Assembly: GCF_002967075.1 (NCBI RefSeq)
Contig: NZ_PUGE01000001.1
Coordinates: forward strand, 1 to 64,000
Direction of reading: 5' to 3'
Origin: Corynebacterium sp. J010B-136
GTDB taxonomy: Bacteria > Actinomycetota > Actinomycetes > Mycobacteriales > Mycobacteriaceae
Length of the DNA: 64,000 nt
In this document: positions 26,139 through 38,208 of the stretch, piece by piece
Layout: every line of letters begins with the position of its first letter
How positions within the stretch are numbered: the stretch's first letter is position 1
The notes under the pieces: generated by a model
Told to the model about the DNA's origin: nothing
Database searches by the model: none
What the model saw: only the letters and a program-made list of their open reading frames with translations
Translations under genes and position numbers: made by a program

Positions 26139-27269
26139 TTAGATGAGGTCCATTGCTCCCATGCTGCTCAAACGGTGCGTATTATCGACCGGTTTTCCTC
26201 GTGGGGTGAAGTGCCGAACTCTGCCGCGGTGTCGTCGCATCCTGCCGCGACTCGGCTTTCGCCTCCCTGGTTTCTTGCGGCCGGGCTTTGCTGGGCCGTC
26301 ATCATCATTCACACCGTTGTGGTACTTACACAGCATCGTTAGATTCGAGGGTTTGGTGTGTCCGCCGGTCTTGTGGGCGTCGATGTGGTGGACTTGGCAC
26401 CGATCCGCGGGCACGTTGCAGTCCGGCCACGGACAGACGAGGTTTTCTGCCATGGCTAAAGTTCGTAGTTTGTCGGAAGCGAACCGTGCTTCGTAGAGAT
26501 TGACTGGCCCAGCGGTGGGATGGAAGAGCCCGACATAGAGCTTGTCGCCAAGCGCGCCTTCCATCGCGGCATTGATGAACTCAGCACCAGTCATGGTCGT
26601 GCCATCAGAAAGCGCGACGATTACTTCTTCGCCTTTGCCACAGGAGACTTTGGCGAAGTCATCCAGACCGATGGCGATAACCGTGCGGTATTCAGGTTTG
26701 ATTATCCCAGTGCCGCCTCCTTCGACTAAATCCCAGAAAGGCTCGAGTAAAGCTTCGGAGCGTGGCTGGTCCTCATCGTGCTTGATGCCAGCATCAAGCG
26801 TTTTCTCGAGGTCGGTAATGCGGCGTTGGGTGTCGGTAATGCTAATGGTGCGTAGACCGTCTATAGCCCGGCCGACGCGTACGCCGCGTTGTTTGGGTGT
26901 GTCGCCGCCTTCTTCGGTGACGCGTTGCTTGCCGAATTCATTAACTTCATCCAAGGTCCCTTCATGTGCGATGAGTTCGGCGCGCAGTTTCCAGGCAGCA
27001 CCACGGGTTGTGAGTTTCTTGGCGTGTTTGTTGACCATTTCTAAATACTCGACGCTTAATTGCCTTGCTTCGGCGAGTGCGACAGCATCGCGCTGCACCT
27101 TGGGAGAATCCCCAGGGCCGAAAAGTACATCGGCAAGTTTGACGTATTTTCGTGCGGTGCTAAGCGACATTACGGCACCGGCTAAGTCATGCGGGGAACA
27201 CTCATACACATCGCGGAGGATGGTTACTCCGCTGGTAGTGAAGAGTTCTAAAATCTGTTGTCCTTTCAT
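26139..27269 (-). CDS. DUF222 (13E12-repeat type) protein with HNH endonuclease domain
   Basis: A protein of about 376 residues. The N-terminal 250 residues are helical, DUF222-like. The C-terminal HNH motif is NLVCPWPDCNVPADRCQVHH followed by IDAHKTGGHTKPSNLTMLC and KYHN, with both zinc-type cysteines and the HH catalytic pair present. The tail is strongly basic (GRKKPGRRKPSRGRMRRHRG). This family occurs in many copies in actinobacteria, often near mobile DNA, but its function is unsettled. The frame opens with a TTG at 27296; the ATG at 27269 (MKGQQILELF) is preferred. It is divergent from the nicotinamidase gene. Confidence 0.85.
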   Translation of the reverse strand: MKGQQILELFTTSGVTILRDVYECSPHDLAGAVMSLSTARKYVKLADVLFGPGDSPKVQRDAVALAEARQLSVEYLEMVNKHAKKLTTRGAAWKLRAELIAHEGTLDEVNEFGKQRVTEEGGDTPKQRGVRVGRAIDGLRTISITDTQRRITDLEKTLDAGIKHDEDQPRSEALLEPFWDLVEGGGTGIIKPEYRTVIAIGLDDFAKVSCGKGEEVIVALSDGTTMTGAEFINAAMEGALGDKLYVGLFHPTAGPVNLYEARFASDKLRTLAMAENLVCPWPDCNVPADRCQVHHIDAHKTGGHTKPSNLTMLCKYHNGVNDDDGPAKPGRKKPGRRKPSRGRMRRHRGRVRHFTPRGKPVDNTHRLSSMGAMDLI

Positions 27270-27408
27270 AACTTCGGCACTAAAAGGCGAACGCAAGCCA
27301 GCGCTAGTGCAAGCTTGAAAATCTGTGGATAACTACGTTGACGCGTCACGCAACTGCCAAAGTTATCCACAGGCGGCACAAAGTGCGCCACGTGGCTACC
27401 CTAAAAGT

Positions 27409-30709: not shown

Positions 30710-31609
30710 ATGGTTTTCAAGAAGGCATTGGCCACCGCGGCGGTGAGCGCGACTGCCGCAGCTCTACTTATTTCAAACGCTGGCGCCGATGATAAGGCCG
30801 CCACCGTTGCCCAAGGTGACTTGGTTGGCCAGTGCGCGGTTAGCTTCAACGATCCCAGCACGAACCGTTCTTATGTTGCGGATTTCTGCGCCGAGTCGGT
30901 TACTCCTACCCGCCTGTACGGTGAGAACAACGCCCCGATTGACGGCCTGGGCACTTTCCATGCCTCTGGATTCAACGAGGCCGGCACCCAGCTAGCGTTT
31001 ATCCAGTGGAACGATGAGGTCGAAGTACTTCCTAATAACATCTCCACCGACGGCTTTGCTCCTGCCCCACAGGTTGGCGACACGGTATATTTCCACCAGC
31101 CTGCCTACGACGGACTTGCTGCGCTTGACGGCCAAGGCACCTACGCTGGTCAGATTAACGGCACCCACTTTGTCGATTTCGGCGCGAACACCGGCACCCA
31201 GGAAGCCAATTCGGGCCTGCTCAATGGCACCACCGTCTGGACGGATGAGGGCATTCTCGGCATCATCGATGGCCGCCACAAGGTCGGCGATCACCCACAC
31301 TTGAGCCTGGTCGCCTCCCCCGACGCCACCGGTGGTGCGATGGGCGCTGAGACCAAAAACGATCGCTTTGCGCTTTTCGATGCCTTCTTCGCCTCCAACC
31401 CCGCTGGCAACAATGACGCCAACGACGCCGGCGATCAAGATGGCAAAGAATCGCCTGTAAATCCTGCTCCAAGTCAGCCAAACGAGCCAAACCAGCCAGG
31501 TGAACCTGACGAATCTGGAAAGTCCCAGCCTCAGATTCCAGCCCTCGGTGGTTCTTCCGGCTCTTCGCTGGGAGCGCTCGAGGATCTCATCAGCCAGGCG
31601 CTGAAGTAG
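30710..31609 (+). CDS. Secreted protein of unknown function
   Basis: A 299-residue exported protein. The N-terminal 26 residues are a signal peptide (MVFKKALATAAVSATAAALL, then cleavage around NAGADD). A mature domain of about 190 residues has two early cysteines (GQCAVSF and ADFCAES) that may form a disulfide and a segment EANSGLLNGTTVW that faintly resembles the catalytic-serine loop of trypsin-like proteases, but no clear triad is present. The C-terminus is a low-complexity Asn/Pro/Glu linker ending in SLGALEDLISQALK. AGGAG precedes the ATG. It seems monocistronic. Family not recognised. Confidence 0.75.
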   Translation: MVFKKALATAAVSATAAALLISNAGADDKAATVAQGDLVGQCAVSFNDPSTNRSYVADFCAESVTPTRLYGENNAPIDGLGTFHASGFNEAGTQLAFIQWNDEVEVLPNNISTDGFAPAPQVGDTVYFHQPAYDGLAALDGQGTYAGQINGTHFVDFGANTGTQEANSGLLNGTTVWTDEGILGIIDGRHKVGDHPHLSLVASPDATGGAMGAETKNDRFALFDAFFASNPAGNNDANDAGDQDGKESPVNPAPSQPNEPNQPGEPDESGKSQPQIPALGGSSGSSLGALEDLISQALK

Positions 31610-31739: not shown

Positions 31740-32261
31740 TTACGTGGATTTTACGTATCCGCCCTCGGATTGAATGTAACCCATTTTTGCCATTTCCTCT
31801 TCAGGGGGCAACGGGAATATCAGCTCGCCTTTAGTGAAGTGCGGCATGATCAATTGCGCTCTCAAAACACGCGAAGCGAGCGTCTGAACAGTCTCACGCA
31901 AATAGGGCAAAAGAGTTGCAATTGCTTGATCATTAGCAAATGCAACTAAGCCGATCGGGTTGACGTCGTTAATGAAACTTTCGGGGAAACGGTAACTACC
32001 TACGACTTCACTACTAACGATTCCGCGGTCCACCCTAATCTCTACAGCAAGTGCGATAGCTGCGGTCAACCATCCTTCCTCATCTCCCTCTGAAGAATCA
32101 TCAGTTGATACGCGCAATCCAAACACCGGCTGAAGCCCCTCTTCCGCGACGTCAGTCAGCTGAACTTCTGCACTCATCTTGTTGTAGGAAATATCTCGAA
32201 GTTCAAGTTGCTCGTCGAGGATCTTCAAATATTGAGCGGCTAAGGCTTCATGGTCAAGCAT
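31740..32261 (-). CDS. SecB-like chaperone of a toxin-antitoxin-chaperone module
   Basis: A 173-residue protein. The C-terminal half has the SecB pattern: a beta strand VVGSYRFPESF, then PIGLVAFANDQAIATLLPYL and RETVQTLASRVLRAQLIMP, closely following the FPYxRExxxxxxxR helix of SecB and ending in the hydrophobic ELIFPLPPEEE. General SecB is absent from most actinobacteria; SecB-like proteins there belong to TAC modules such as M. tuberculosis Rv1957. It is the third gene of the unit, and its ATG at 32261 overlaps the antitoxin stop by eight bases, with GGAAGG upstream. Expected role: bind the antitoxin tail and keep it folded and protected. Confidence 0.78.
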   Translation of the reverse strand: MLDHEALAAQYLKILDEQLELRDISYNKMSAEVQLTDVAEEGLQPVFGLRVSTDDSSEGDEEGWLTAAIALAVEIRVDRGIVSSEVVGSYRFPESFINDVNPIGLVAFANDQAIATLLPYLRETVQTLASRVLRAQLIMPHFTKGELIFPLPPEEEMAKMGYIQSEGGYVKST

Positions 32262-32646
32262 ATTCCACCTTCCCGATAGTCGGCTGCCATGAACTGTTTT
32301 TACGGGCGGCGTCAACTGAGGTCAAACGACTCTTCTTGACTAATGAAGCTGATACATCAGGTTGACGGGTGGGCAACACAAACGCCTTATCTCGCGGGGT
32401 CGCTGACATTACGATCGACGCCCCCACTGCTAACGCGTATCTCCTAATAGTTCCCAAAGTCGGGTTGGAATCATAACGCTCAAACTGCGCAATGGCACTT
32501 TGAGATAACCCCAGAGCTTCTCCGACCTGCTGTTGGGAAAGGTTTCGCTGCTCGCGAATTTTCACGAGGCTATTACGAAACTCCCGCTGCTCACGAAGAA
32601 TCTCCTTGGCGTGCTCTTTCATTTCCGCTTGCTGACGACCGCTCAT
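32254..32646 (-). CDS. XRE-family antitoxin (HigA-like) with C-terminal tail
   Basis: A 130-residue protein. Residues 24-80 are an XRE helix-turn-helix (LVKIREQRNLSQQQVGEALG, then LSQSAIAQFERYDSNPTLG). Residues 84-130 form a tail beyond the HTH ending SSWQPTIGKVEYA, rich in small and basic residues with spaced W120, I124 and V127. In TAC systems such a tail is the chaperone-addiction (ChAD) region that the SecB-like partner binds. It starts ten bases after the toxin stop and overlaps the chaperone start by eight bases. An ATG at 32622 is an alternative start. It should neutralise the upstream toxin and repress the operon. Confidence 0.85.
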   Translation of the reverse strand: MSGRQQAEMKEHAKEILREQREFRNSLVKIREQRNLSQQQVGEALGLSQSAIAQFERYDSNPTLGTIRRYALAVGASIVMSATPRDKAFVLPTRQPDVSASLVKKSRLTSVDAARKNSSWQPTIGKVEYA

Positions 32647-32656
32647 AAGCTTTATC

Positions 32657-33211
32657 TTATACCGCTGGTGGCTTCTTGTTGCGTTTACGAAGGGAATCAA
32701 GTTCACTGACTTTCCAATTATCCTCGGAGCACTTTTCACATAGCTCGATCGCTGCATCGATTTCTATATATTGTAACCTATTGGTTTCAGCCTTATCCCC
32801 GTTAACTATCTTCTTTTCATGGAGATACAACCCAACCACCCAGCTATCCCCCTCCTCTACCGTATAAAGGCGCAGATGAACATTAGCTTGGCGGTATAAG
32901 CCCGACGCTTTCTCCGCTTTCAGAACCTTGATATCAGTCCATCGAATTTCATAAATGTCTAGGGGCTTGGCTCGATGAATTCGTTTAATATGTTTGAGCG
33001 GTTCTAGGTCCCCCCTTTCCGCGCATTCGAGCAATTCTTCTATCTGACCTTCCAAGTCAGCTTGGAGAATGCCCGCTATGCGGTATCCACTTTTTATCAA
33101 TTTTTCTGTCGCGAATTCTGCGGTTTCTTCAATATGCTTTGAAGTCGAACAAAACCGCCAAAAATAATGAACCTGGCCCCCGCCCGAGCACACCGATATT
33201 TTATGTCCCAC
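32657..33211 (-). CDS. HigB/RelE-superfamily toxin-like protein
   Basis: A protein of up to 184 residues. The core at about 75-160 fits HigB/Gp49-type toxins, which cleave ribosome-bound mRNA: KHIKRIHRAKPLDIYEIRW, then VHLRLYTVEE, SWVVGLYLHEKKIV and a helix QYIEIDAAIELC. Basic residues in these strands (H75, K76, R77, R80, R90, K133, K134) are candidates for the active site. An extra N-terminal helical region of about 70 residues and a basic tail KKPPAV are unusual for HigB. The GTG at 33211 is only a candidate start; a later one is likely, since no ribosome-binding site is seen. First gene of the TAC unit, matching the toxin-first order of HigBA. Confidence 0.68.
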   Translation of the reverse strand: MGHKISVCSGGGQVHYFWRFCSTSKHIEETAEFATEKLIKSGYRIAGILQADLEGQIEELLECAERGDLEPLKHIKRIHRAKPLDIYEIRWTDIKVLKAEKASGLYRQANVHLRLYTVEEGDSWVVGLYLHEKKIVNGDKAETNRLQYIEIDAAIELCEKCSEDNWKVSELDSLRKRNKKPPAV

Positions 33212-34710: not shown

Positions 34711-37700
34711 TTAGGAACGAAAAGCTCCGCTAATTACCCCAAGTAGGTTCCGGAAGGCACCGCCGAGGGCATCGAAGAGTCCAAAGATTCCGCCACGGCT
34801 GGAGCTAGAAGATACCGAAGAACCGGGGTTCTCGGAAGATCCTGATGAGCCCGAGCTGCCTTCGGAGCTGCCTTCAGAGCTAGAGGCGTCGTCTTTTTCG
34901 GTGACAACCACGATGCGATCGGTAGTGGCTTGGTTGCCGTTGGCATCGCTGACTACGTAGCGGATAATATAACGGCCAGGTTGGTTGATGTCGAGGTTAC
35001 CAACGACTTCAATATTGTCGGTGACATCGCCATCAACGTCATCGGTAGCAGTGACTCCGGCGAGCAGGTCGGCGGCGGAACCAGCTTCAACAATGAGGTC
35101 ATCGCTAGGCACGGTCAGCTCAGGCGCGGTGGAGTCGGTGCCAGCATCGCGGGCGGTAAATACTGCGAACTGACGAGTCTGACCAGGTTCGACCTTCTCA
35201 CCGGTGGCGGTGTCGCGGCTGGTGGCATACCAAGCGTAGACCTCGTCGGATTTGAGTCCGGTCCAGTTGACTTCGGCTGGCCAGCCGGAGCGCGCGGTGT
35301 CTTTGCCAATTTCTTCGCCGGTGTCGGATACAAGCGTTACGGCATCGGTAGTAAAGCTGGTCTTGCGGGTTTCAAACTGAACCGGCAGGCGGGTGTCATC
35401 TTCGGTGCCGTCGTAACGGGCGCGGTCATCGTATTCGGTGGCACCAAAGTTATCGAGAAACGGCGAGTAAGTATCCACGATCATTTCGCCGGCATCGAGG
35501 TCGAATTGCAAAAGGCGTAGGAACGCGGCACCAAATTGCAGTGGTGTGTCGGTGCCGTATCCGCCGACTTCGGTAAGTCCAAGCTCATCGGATCCGACTT
35601 TGTAGAACTGGTAGTCAGCTAGCAGTTCGGTGACATGGTTGCCTTCCGTGCCAACGTCTTTGCGCGTGACGATGGACACGCCGTGCTCATGACCCGAGAG
35701 CACTAGGGCTACATTCGGGTTAGGTTCCACAACTTTTTCTAAAACGATGCTGCCGTCGTGAGAGGCATTCGCGCCTCTGCCGTCGGGCGAATTGCTGGGT
35801 TTGTTGTAGGCGTGTGTGAGCACAATAGCGTTGCGGTCTGGGTACTGCTTGAGCACGCTATCGGCCCAGGCGGCTTCTTCTTCGGTGACATCGTAACCGA
35901 GACTGACCACGACGAATTCTAGTCCTTCGGCGCTGAACAAATCATAGTGGTTGTCATTGTCGCCTTCTTTCCACGGGTGGTGCGAAGCATCGCGGGCTTG
36001 CCAGCCGGCGGTCTGTTCTAGGGCTTCGTAGCGCTCCGGGCCGAAGTACTGGTTGTACAGGTTGTCCGGACCGATATCGCGGCCGGTCCAGTTATCGTGG
36101 TTACCGGGCAGAACACCATTGACAACCTCGGCTTCGTCGAGAATCTTTTGAGCTTCAGACGCTACCTCAAATTCTTTGCGAGCGTTGTCCTCATCATTGG
36201 TTTCGCGAATCCAGTTTTCAATGATGTCGCCGGTGTGCGCGTGGTAGGCAATCTTGCGTGCATCAGCATTGTCCGCAACCCATTGGGTGGCATCTAGGTA
36301 AGACTGCTTCCAAACTTCGCGTTCTTCTTCGGACTCGTTTTCTACCGCGCCTTCCACAATGTACTGGGTGTCAGTGTGGTGAGAAATGGCAAAGTCATAG
36401 TCATCCGGGTCTGCGAAGCTATCTTCGACGGTGTTCGGGATGTCATCTGCGAATGGGTCATAGCCTAAGACCATGGCGTGTACATCGCTGCCATCGATAT
36501 GTTCTGCACTGATGTCGCCGTTGAGGCTAACCTCGCTGTTGCTAGTTCCGCGGGTGCTTGCCAGCTCATCCCAGGTAGAGGTTGCCGTGTTCCATGCAAA
36601 CAAGCGCGCGCTGCGATTAGGGTCCACTTGGCCTTTCCACACCAGTTGGTTTTCTTCCGTGCCGTCAGCAGGAAGAGCAACATCGAAACGCTGAAAAGGC
36701 ATCTGCGTGGTGGAAGCTGTCTGCGCGGTGTCGTCATCGCCAGGCTTAAGCGAGGCAGAAATCTCGGAAGCGTCCTCGTATTCAAAATCCAGCGAATCCG
36801 GCATTCCGCCGACAACTCCCTGGAACCCACCCTCCGGAGTAGAGGTAGTTCCCTTGGTAAACGTGGTCTCCACATCCCCACCGGAAGGATTATCGGCGAT
36901 AGCAGACAGGGTCACGTTCCCCTTTCCTTGGTCCGTATCAGTGCCACCGCCTTGAGGGATGTTGCCGCTGGTGAAGGAAACTCGCTCAGAAATCTCTCCG
37001 CCAAAAACGTCACGGGCTTGAATGTGAAGCTCGTGCTCTCCTTCCAAAAGACCAGGTCCGATAAGCTGGCCTGCCTCCACTTTTTCACCATCAAGCTCAT
37101 AAGTGGGTTCACCGCTAAGCAAAGCGTCATCTGAGTATTCGACCTCAAGCTTTACGCCTTCTTTGACGTGGTCACCTGCAGCCGGTGTGGTAGATGCCAG
37201 TTCCAGCTGCTTCTCACTGTTAACGCCAGATTCGCCGTACAGGGCCGCCACATCCGACTCACCGATGGGCTCGGAGTAAAGGCGGGCGGTGCGGAAGGAG
37301 GCATCGGCAAGCAGTTGCGGGTTGTCAGAGCCATTGGTGTCACCGCCTACGGTGAAGGAATCAGCATTGCCGGTGGGTAGGTTGTATTCGCCGGTAGTTT
37401 TCTTGCTCGCTGCCAGCTCACCGTTGAGATAAAGCTGGGCTTCTTGGCCGTCCCATACGCCAACCGCGTGGTACCAGCGGTCTGGGTCAACCTCCACGCG
37501 GGCCTGCTGGTAGCCGGAGCCGACGTGGATGATGAAAGACAGTTCATTTTCATACAGCGCCAGTGCGAACCCGCCGGCTTCTTTGTTGGCACACAGGCTC
37601 TTTTCGCTGGCAAATTCGCCGTTGAGTTTGAAAGTGCACTCGACTGCGAAGCCATCGGCAAGCGCTGCGTCCTGGTCCCCGATATCAAACTGCACGGCAT

Positions 37701-37950
37701 CATCTTGGCCGTCAAAGGTAGCAACCGGCTGCTCCAACGCCGGGTCGATGCCAAAATCCGGATCCCCGCTGATTTTGGCCGGAACATCCCGCGCGGTGTC
37801 GATGGCCCCGGATTCCGAAATCTCAATATCAAGCAGATCTGCTTGTGCGTTTTGTTGTCCATGGGCCGCCCCTACCATGGCAACGTGGCTTACGGTCACC
37901 GTGCCGGCGACGACTAGTGCTGTTGACAGCCGAGTCGATTTAATTGTCAT
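34711..37950 (-). CDS. Large secreted LamG-metallophosphatase
   Basis: A 1079-residue exported enzyme. A signal peptide (STALVVAGTVTVSHVAMVGA, then AHGQ) leads to a LamG/concanavalin-like lectin domain at about 80-250 (DRWYHAVGVWDGQEAQLYLN). The calcineurin-type phosphoesterase core spans about 515-840: SHHTDTQY, AHTGDIIENW, LPGNHDNWTG, VLTHAYNK and LSGHEHGVS carry the metal ligands. An Ig/DUF5011-like domain follows (TATDDVDGDVTDNIEVVG, then PGRYIIRYVVSDANGNQ), then a Ser/Gly-rich linker and an amphipathic C-terminus (GGIFGLFDALGGAFRNLLG). No LPxTG was seen. The ATG at 37950 is chosen since it opens the signal peptide directly. It could cleave nucleotides, phosphosugars or wall polymers. Confidence 0.88.
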   Translation of the reverse strand: MTIKSTRLSTALVVAGTVTVSHVAMVGAAHGQQNAQADLLDIEISESGAIDTARDVPAKISGDPDFGIDPALEQPVATFDGQDDAVQFDIGDQDAALADGFAVECTFKLNGEFASEKSLCANKEAGGFALALYENELSFIIHVGSGYQQARVEVDPDRWYHAVGVWDGQEAQLYLNGELAASKKTTGEYNLPTGNADSFTVGGDTNGSDNPQLLADASFRTARLYSEPIGESDVAALYGESGVNSEKQLELASTTPAAGDHVKEGVKLEVEYSDDALLSGEPTYELDGEKVEAGQLIGPGLLEGEHELHIQARDVFGGEISERVSFTSGNIPQGGGTDTDQGKGNVTLSAIADNPSGGDVETTFTKGTTSTPEGGFQGVVGGMPDSLDFEYEDASEISASLKPGDDDTAQTASTTQMPFQRFDVALPADGTEENQLVWKGQVDPNRSARLFAWNTATSTWDELASTRGTSNSEVSLNGDISAEHIDGSDVHAMVLGYDPFADDIPNTVEDSFADPDDYDFAISHHTDTQYIVEGAVENESEEEREVWKQSYLDATQWVADNADARKIAYHAHTGDIIENWIRETNDEDNARKEFEVASEAQKILDEAEVVNGVLPGNHDNWTGRDIGPDNLYNQYFGPERYEALEQTAGWQARDASHHPWKEGDNDNHYDLFSAEGLEFVVVSLGYDVTEEEAAWADSVLKQYPDRNAIVLTHAYNKPSNSPDGRGANASHDGSIVLEKVVEPNPNVALVLSGHEHGVSIVTRKDVGTEGNHVTELLADYQFYKVGSDELGLTEVGGYGTDTPLQFGAAFLRLLQFDLDAGEMIVDTYSPFLDNFGATEYDDRARYDGTEDDTRLPVQFETRKTSFTTDAVTLVSDTGEEIGKDTARSGWPAEVNWTGLKSDEVYAWYATSRDTATGEKVEPGQTRQFAVFTARDAGTDSTAPELTVPSDDLIVEAGSAADLLAGVTATDDVDGDVTDNIEVVGNLDINQPGRYIIRYVVSDANGNQATTDRIVVVTEKDDASSSEGSSEGSSGSSGSSENPGSSVSSSSSRGGIFGLFDALGGAFRNLLGVISGAFRS

Positions 37951-38208
37951 TTGGTTGTCTCTTCTCGTAGTGGTTGAACAAAATCTCACGCGAAATAGCT
38001 ATTTCGCCTAAGACACGCCCTCTTCGAGGACATGCCGCAAGCACGATATCGAGGCAGGGTTAAGCCAAAACAAACTACAAAACAACATCTCACAAACGTT
38101 AGGTTGATGAAAGAACTTTTAGAAGAACTGCTTCGCGCTCTCCCCTTTTTTGTGTCACTGTTAGTCCGCTATAGCCGAATTATCTTGATGTGAACTAACG
38201 TTGTGTTT

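Follow-up and report, generated by a model that had tools for sequence, protein, structure and literature searches.

The three-gene locus

A 64,000-nucleotide stretch of Corynebacterium sp. J010B-136 (contig NZ_PUGE01000001.1, positions 1 to 64,000; hereafter the window) was analysed and found to carry, on its minus strand, a rare predicted toxin-antitoxin-chaperone (TAC) module. A preliminary description of this DNA had reported three tightly packed genes; these were confirmed as open reading frames (ORFs) at 33211-32657, 32646-32254 and 32261-31740, with a 10-base gap between the toxin and antitoxin genes and with the eight-base antitoxin/chaperone overlap that had also been described. Modules of this kind are already known; in this one the toxin and chaperone have diverged so far that none of the family libraries used matches them with confidence. 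The genes are as follows:

32657..33211, minus strand: toxin gene, 184 amino acids, GTG start, predicted RelE/HigB fold (ORF and predicted structure)
32254..32646, minus strand: antitoxin gene, 130 amino acids, ATG start, XRE family (HTH_3 match, E 4.9e-12)
31740..32261, minus strand: SecB-like chaperone gene, 173 amino acids, ATG start, its first 8 bases inside the antitoxin gene

The same order of toxin, XRE antitoxin and SecB-like protein was observed at all nine loci read, down to about 25% identity, in each case as an operon-like cluster in which the SecB-like gene follows the toxin-antitoxin pair. These loci were the window, G094, C. riegelii, G485, G509, G1069 and three Curtobacterium/Clavibacter plasmids. 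In seven of eight loci the antitoxin and chaperone genes either overlap or are separated by no more than 7 bases (43 bases in G485), and at the ninth the longest antitoxin and chaperone ORFs overlap. The proposed correspondence in gene order with the Mycobacterium tuberculosis HigB-HigA-Rv1957 TAC is therefore supported, as both the order and a tryptophan in the antitoxin tail recur in distant loci.

All three frames are intact in the G094 copy, which has 67-68% DNA identity to the window module; its flanks are collinear with those of the window, which makes orthology the most likely relation between the two copies. In each gene the third codon position carries the most differences between the two copies (positions 1/2/3: toxin 45/34/96, antitoxin 34/28/66, chaperone 36/21/108). 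Nonsynonymous divergence (dN) was 0.245, 0.252 and 0.194 for toxin, antitoxin and chaperone, respectively, while synonymous divergence (dS) was about 2.2 for the toxin and 2.1 for the antitoxin and was not computable for the chaperone. Given the codon-position bias and the distant homologues, chance reading frames were rejected as an explanation of the three ORFs. The GTG start of the toxin matches the GTG start in G094 and the point at which most other relatives begin; for two relatives a shorter N-terminus is given.

Structure and sequence of the encoded proteins

The predicted structure of the 173-residue protein matched the SecB fold, and its top match was the TAC chaperone Rv1957, so that the earlier reading of a SecB-like chaperone held for the fold, while the Pfam SecB profile was not matched. 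Among defence-system profiles it gave a weak match to PADLOC PD-T4-9_C (window E 0.0098; six of seven members match, best 7.1e-5); PD-T4-9 is presumably one system with CmdTAC. Matches to PHROGs were limited to E 0.33 and 0.4.

For the toxin, the nearest structures to the model were HigB and RelE entries, which places it in the RelE/HigB superfamily by fold. The preliminary assignment to this superfamily thus stands by predicted structure and fails by sequence profile. Acidic and basic residues of catalytic type were found on strands beta2 and beta3 and where beta4 ends (E88, R114, H131 and K133). Features of the toxin are listed below; pairing with HigB-TAC residues is proposed from spacing and, for E88, also from strand position.

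32948..32950, minus strand: E88, which may correspond to HigB-TAC E66; invariant across all 17 aligned toxins
32873..32941, minus strand: residues 91-113, long beta2-beta3 hairpin (model and alignment)
32870..32872, minus strand: R114, which may correspond to HigB-TAC R77; also invariant across the 17
32813..32821, minus strand: H131-E132-K133, end of beta4; K133 is the candidate counterpart of HigB-TAC K95

H131 and K133 are likewise invariant in all 17 toxins. The published numbering for HigB-TAC is E66, R68, R77 and K95, with 11 residues from E66 to R77 (PMC9098466). The same spacing, E-x-R-x8-R, is found in the three plasmid toxins, in which the counterparts of E88 and R114 are 11 residues apart, compared with 26 in the window toxin, whose beta2-beta3 hairpin is 15 residues longer. 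The toxin had also been described as some 70 residues longer than usual HigB at its N-terminus; this proved wrong. In the structural alignments the first pairs join model residue 13 to residue 1 of S. pneumoniae HigB and residues 11-12 to residues 7-8 of Rv1955, giving an N-terminal excess of roughly 4-12 residues. The extra length in the model is mostly internal and includes the long hairpin.

The antitoxin was correctly described as an XRE protein with a C-terminal tail after its helix-turn-helix (HTH) domain:

32416..32562, minus strand: residues 29-77, HTH domain (HTH_3 match)
32257..32415, minus strand: residues 78-130, C-terminal tail, candidate chaperone-addiction (ChAD-like) region
32287..32289, minus strand: W120 codon, the sole column after the HTH that does not vary among the eight aligned antitoxins

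Tails of 42-63 residues, each with a tryptophan, were present in all eight antitoxins measured and are candidate chaperone-binding regions as judged by sequence. All 12 tryptophans of these proteins lie in the tails, with none in 620 core residues, and the only tryptophan of the ninth antitoxin (G1069) is also in its tail. A pattern of W120, I124 and V127 had been noted in the window protein. All three residues lie where they were reported, while W120 alone is general across the relatives: I124 is a threonine in G094, and V127 is common to G094 and was not placed in the others. The tail alignment has many gaps and is loose. In M. tuberculosis, W108 of the HigA1 ChAD lies buried within an Rv1957 pocket (PMC6377645). 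Among tested TAC antitoxins, the ChAD regions are described as without significant similarity to each other (PMC5105189), so a lone conserved tryptophan is as one might expect.

Proposed mechanism and competing explanations

We consider it probable that the three genes form a TAC operon in which the SecB-like chaperone binds the W120-bearing tail and stabilises the antitoxin, which in turn neutralises a RelE/HigB-like, likely mRNA-cutting toxin. Most likely the antitoxin would be unable to fold or persist without the chaperone on its tail, where the chaperone would shield it from aggregation and proteolysis; the antitoxin so held would block the toxin, likely an mRNase that depends on the ribosome. 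If the chaperone were drawn away, the antitoxin would decay and release the toxin. The XRE antitoxin may also repress its own operon. We infer every functional step: toxin activity from the fold and the invariant E88, R114, H131 and K133, and chaperone addiction from the tryptophan kept in the tail and the likeness of the chaperone to Rv1957. The least supported step is the trigger, which could be whatever engages the chaperone, with a freshly synthesised phage structural protein as the most likely candidate. Phage structural proteins are the reported triggers of E. coli HigBAC (PMC11980606) and CmdTAC (PMC11618068), and blocked export is a published hypothesis (PMC4257090).

Several results weigh against this interpretation. 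The chaperone model is weak (predicted local distance difference test score, pLDDT, 70.2; predicted template modelling score, pTM, 0.57), was built from 4 sequences, and ranged from 40 to 70 over five models. The window chaperone had no match in Pfam or NCBIfam, and even the best relative reached 16.9 bits against the gathering cut-off of 26 for Pfam SecB (PF02556). The window toxin had no match in Pfam, NCBIfam, PHROGs or PADLOC, and sequence and profile searches of the PDB with it returned nothing or one unrelated chain. It did not reach the gathering cut-off of Gp49 (PF05973), which was matched by only two of 15 toxins (best E 0.0095, 16.4 bits against a cut-off of 23.9). When aligned by hhalign with five actinobacterial Gp49 proteins, taken from twelve Gp49 matches, the toxins gave probabilities of 0.14% (17 toxins) and 0.26% (three plasmid toxins), with scores no better than those of shuffled columns. 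Foldseek alone ranked HigB second (E 0.056), after an unrelated chain, and none of its 680 matches reached E 0.001. R90 is not invariant, its position being lysine in four and alanine in one of the 17 toxins (arginine or lysine in 16 of 17). With the five lineages treated as independent at background frequency, the chance of a tail tryptophan in all of them is 0.021, and the tryptophan is thus moderate support only, not proof. Promoter-like sites were no more frequent than in shuffled sequence and no terminator-like site was found; the search for an operator repeat gave nothing convincing (one 15-base inverted repeat, 73% complementary, in 271 bases). Five flanking window proteins had no match in PADLOC.

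It is possible, if doubtful, that the module serves mainly in surveillance of host stress and export and not in phage defence, the chaperone also acting in export, so that a blockage would pull it off the antitoxin. At E 0.001 there was no Pfam SecB match in any of 61 relatives, a set that includes the window genome, so its genome may have no SecB-like protein besides the module chaperone; a sentinel role for Rv1957 was proposed in a review (PMC4257090), and the window copy lies among ordinary chromosomal genes. However, the toxin occurs in so few Corynebacterium genomes that export does not generally need the module, and distant copies are carried by plasmids or found close to abortive-infection-like and transposase-type genes.

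An ordinary two-gene HigBA pair, with the chaperone gene a neighbour dispensable for neutralisation, would account for a tail that resembles a ChAD by one tryptophan only and for the 43-base spacing in G485. This is very unlikely, as the chaperone gene is directly downstream at all nine loci, with the close spacing described above in seven of eight, and each of the eight measured antitoxins has a tryptophan-bearing tail of at least 42 residues. The remodelled hairpin and C-terminus also raise the question of whether a RelE/ParE-superfamily fold here acts on a target other than A-site mRNA, such as gyrase or tRNA. The 15 additional hairpin residues, and the failure of every sequence profile to place the toxin in Gp49, agree with this view, but the invariant E88, R114 and K133 agree with the residue set published for HigB-TAC, the plasmid relatives share its E-x-R-x8-R spacing (PMC9098466), and the closest structural matches are HigB and RelE entries, which together make another target improbable.

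The window module was compared with known systems. Identity to the M. tuberculosis HigB1-HigA1-Rv1957 TAC is about 18-21% over structural alignments; the Corynebacterium toxin is longer, with a longer beta2-beta3 hairpin, and the W-x-R-x3-Y spacing of the ChAD peptide is absent from the Corynebacterium antitoxin tail (WQPTIGKVEY). E. coli HigBAC, likened here by its description, likewise joins a HigB toxin, a HigA antitoxin and a SecB-like chaperone, HigC, and is activated by the lambda major tail protein (PMC11980606), whereas no phage trigger is known for the Corynebacterium module. CmdTAC shares the three-gene logic with a SecB-like chaperone (PMC11618068), but CmdT is an mRNA ADP-ribosyltransferase and the Corynebacterium toxin has a predicted RelE fold. 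In S. pneumoniae HigBA (6af3/6af4) the toxin chains have 114-119 residues compared with 184, and the entry titles name no chaperone. No description of such a module in Corynebacterium or Clavibacter was found in the literature on SecB and antitoxins, where an earlier listing is possible; the accessible portions of PMC10440598, PMC8832971 and PMC6504116 describe none, and that of PMC6504116 lists an HTH_3 pair in a Corynebacterium.

TAC modules illustrate how a chaperone can serve as a safety catch for a toxin; in two modules published from E. coli it also senses phage. As Pfam and NCBIfam miss both the toxin and the chaperone of this lineage, TAC modules are probably under-counted in actinobacteria, and diverged toxin and tail sequences that keep one tryptophan offer a natural test of the minimal sequence needs of chaperone addiction. 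Tentatively, these loci might belong to a TAC lineage of actinobacteria that has a toxin family of its own; the long beta2-beta3 hairpin would reach into the decoding centre and alter the codons or RNAs cut, the chaperone would have no export role and act as a phage-protein sensor, and plasmids would have spread the module among Corynebacterium, Curtobacterium and Clavibacter.

Distribution and genomic context

A search of 5.8 billion proteins returned two relatives of the chaperone and three of the toxin, and 12 with a six-toxin alignment. The toxin profile was present in 5 of 242 Corynebacterium genomes and the chaperone sequence in 3 of 201 genomes. In overlapping samples of the family, order and class, the toxin profile was found in 1 of 301, 1 of 397 (in both, the window's own genome only) and 2 of 394 genomes (one more). 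The module reads identically in G060, which belongs to the genus of the window genome, and in C. riegelii NZ_CP068159. A toxin relative named as a C. diphtheriae hypothetical protein (P0012, 25 member sequences) has 44-46% identity.

Chaperone matches were identified on 16 of 72,556 plasmid records (10 Curtobacterium and 6 Clavibacter), and toxin relatives at 26-30% identity were present on all three of the 16 records that were read; for the C. capsici plasmid toxin a longer ORF was used instead of the annotated one. A tblastn search with the toxin found nothing in the 72,556 plasmid or 50,697 phage records, a result that reflects sensitivity, since toxin relatives were then read on the chaperone-matching plasmids. 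No chaperone match was found in the phage records by tblastn, nor any relative in viral-contig scans with the toxin and chaperone alignments.

G+C content is 0.46-0.50 inside the module and 0.53-0.64 around it; this, the rarity of the module and its plasmid copies suggest horizontal spread, and the module was probably acquired horizontally. In C. riegelii about 1.2 kb separate the TAC from an AbiLi/AbiLii-like pair (E 2.2e-80 and 6.1e-23; L004:1703-3782), and transposase-type genes are present downstream; in G509 an OLD/AriA-like ATPase (L059:983-2890) lies about 0.7 kb away, with transposase-type genes on the other side. Two tested neighbours of the G485 copy had no PADLOC match. The context fits mobile, partly defence-associated spread; defence itself does not follow from it. 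In the window, genes around the module encode, among others, a mechanosensitive-channel protein, a glycine-transporter-family protein and one protein that matches no Pfam family. G006 has its transporter-family gene near the channel gene in a rearranged order, and a clean empty site was not obtained.

Other genes were noted near these copies. A 607-amino-acid protein without Pfam match and a ClpP-like SDH-type protease lie near the G485 TAC (L058:1057-2880 and L058:6969-7913). The TAC of two Clavibacter plasmids is directly followed by a small hypothetical gene and a gene of the Fic family (L007:3385-4456 and L008:3386-4202), possibly a second toxin-antitoxin pair. In the window, positions 30710-31609 encode a secreted-looking protein of 299 amino acids without Pfam match, which adjoins the module in G094 too, and positions 34711-37989 encode a metallophosphoesterase-domain protein of 1092 amino acids with laminin-G-like and bacterial immunoglobulin-like domains. 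An HNH endonuclease-domain protein of 385 amino acids with a TTG start (26139-27296) lies some 4.4 kb from the module.
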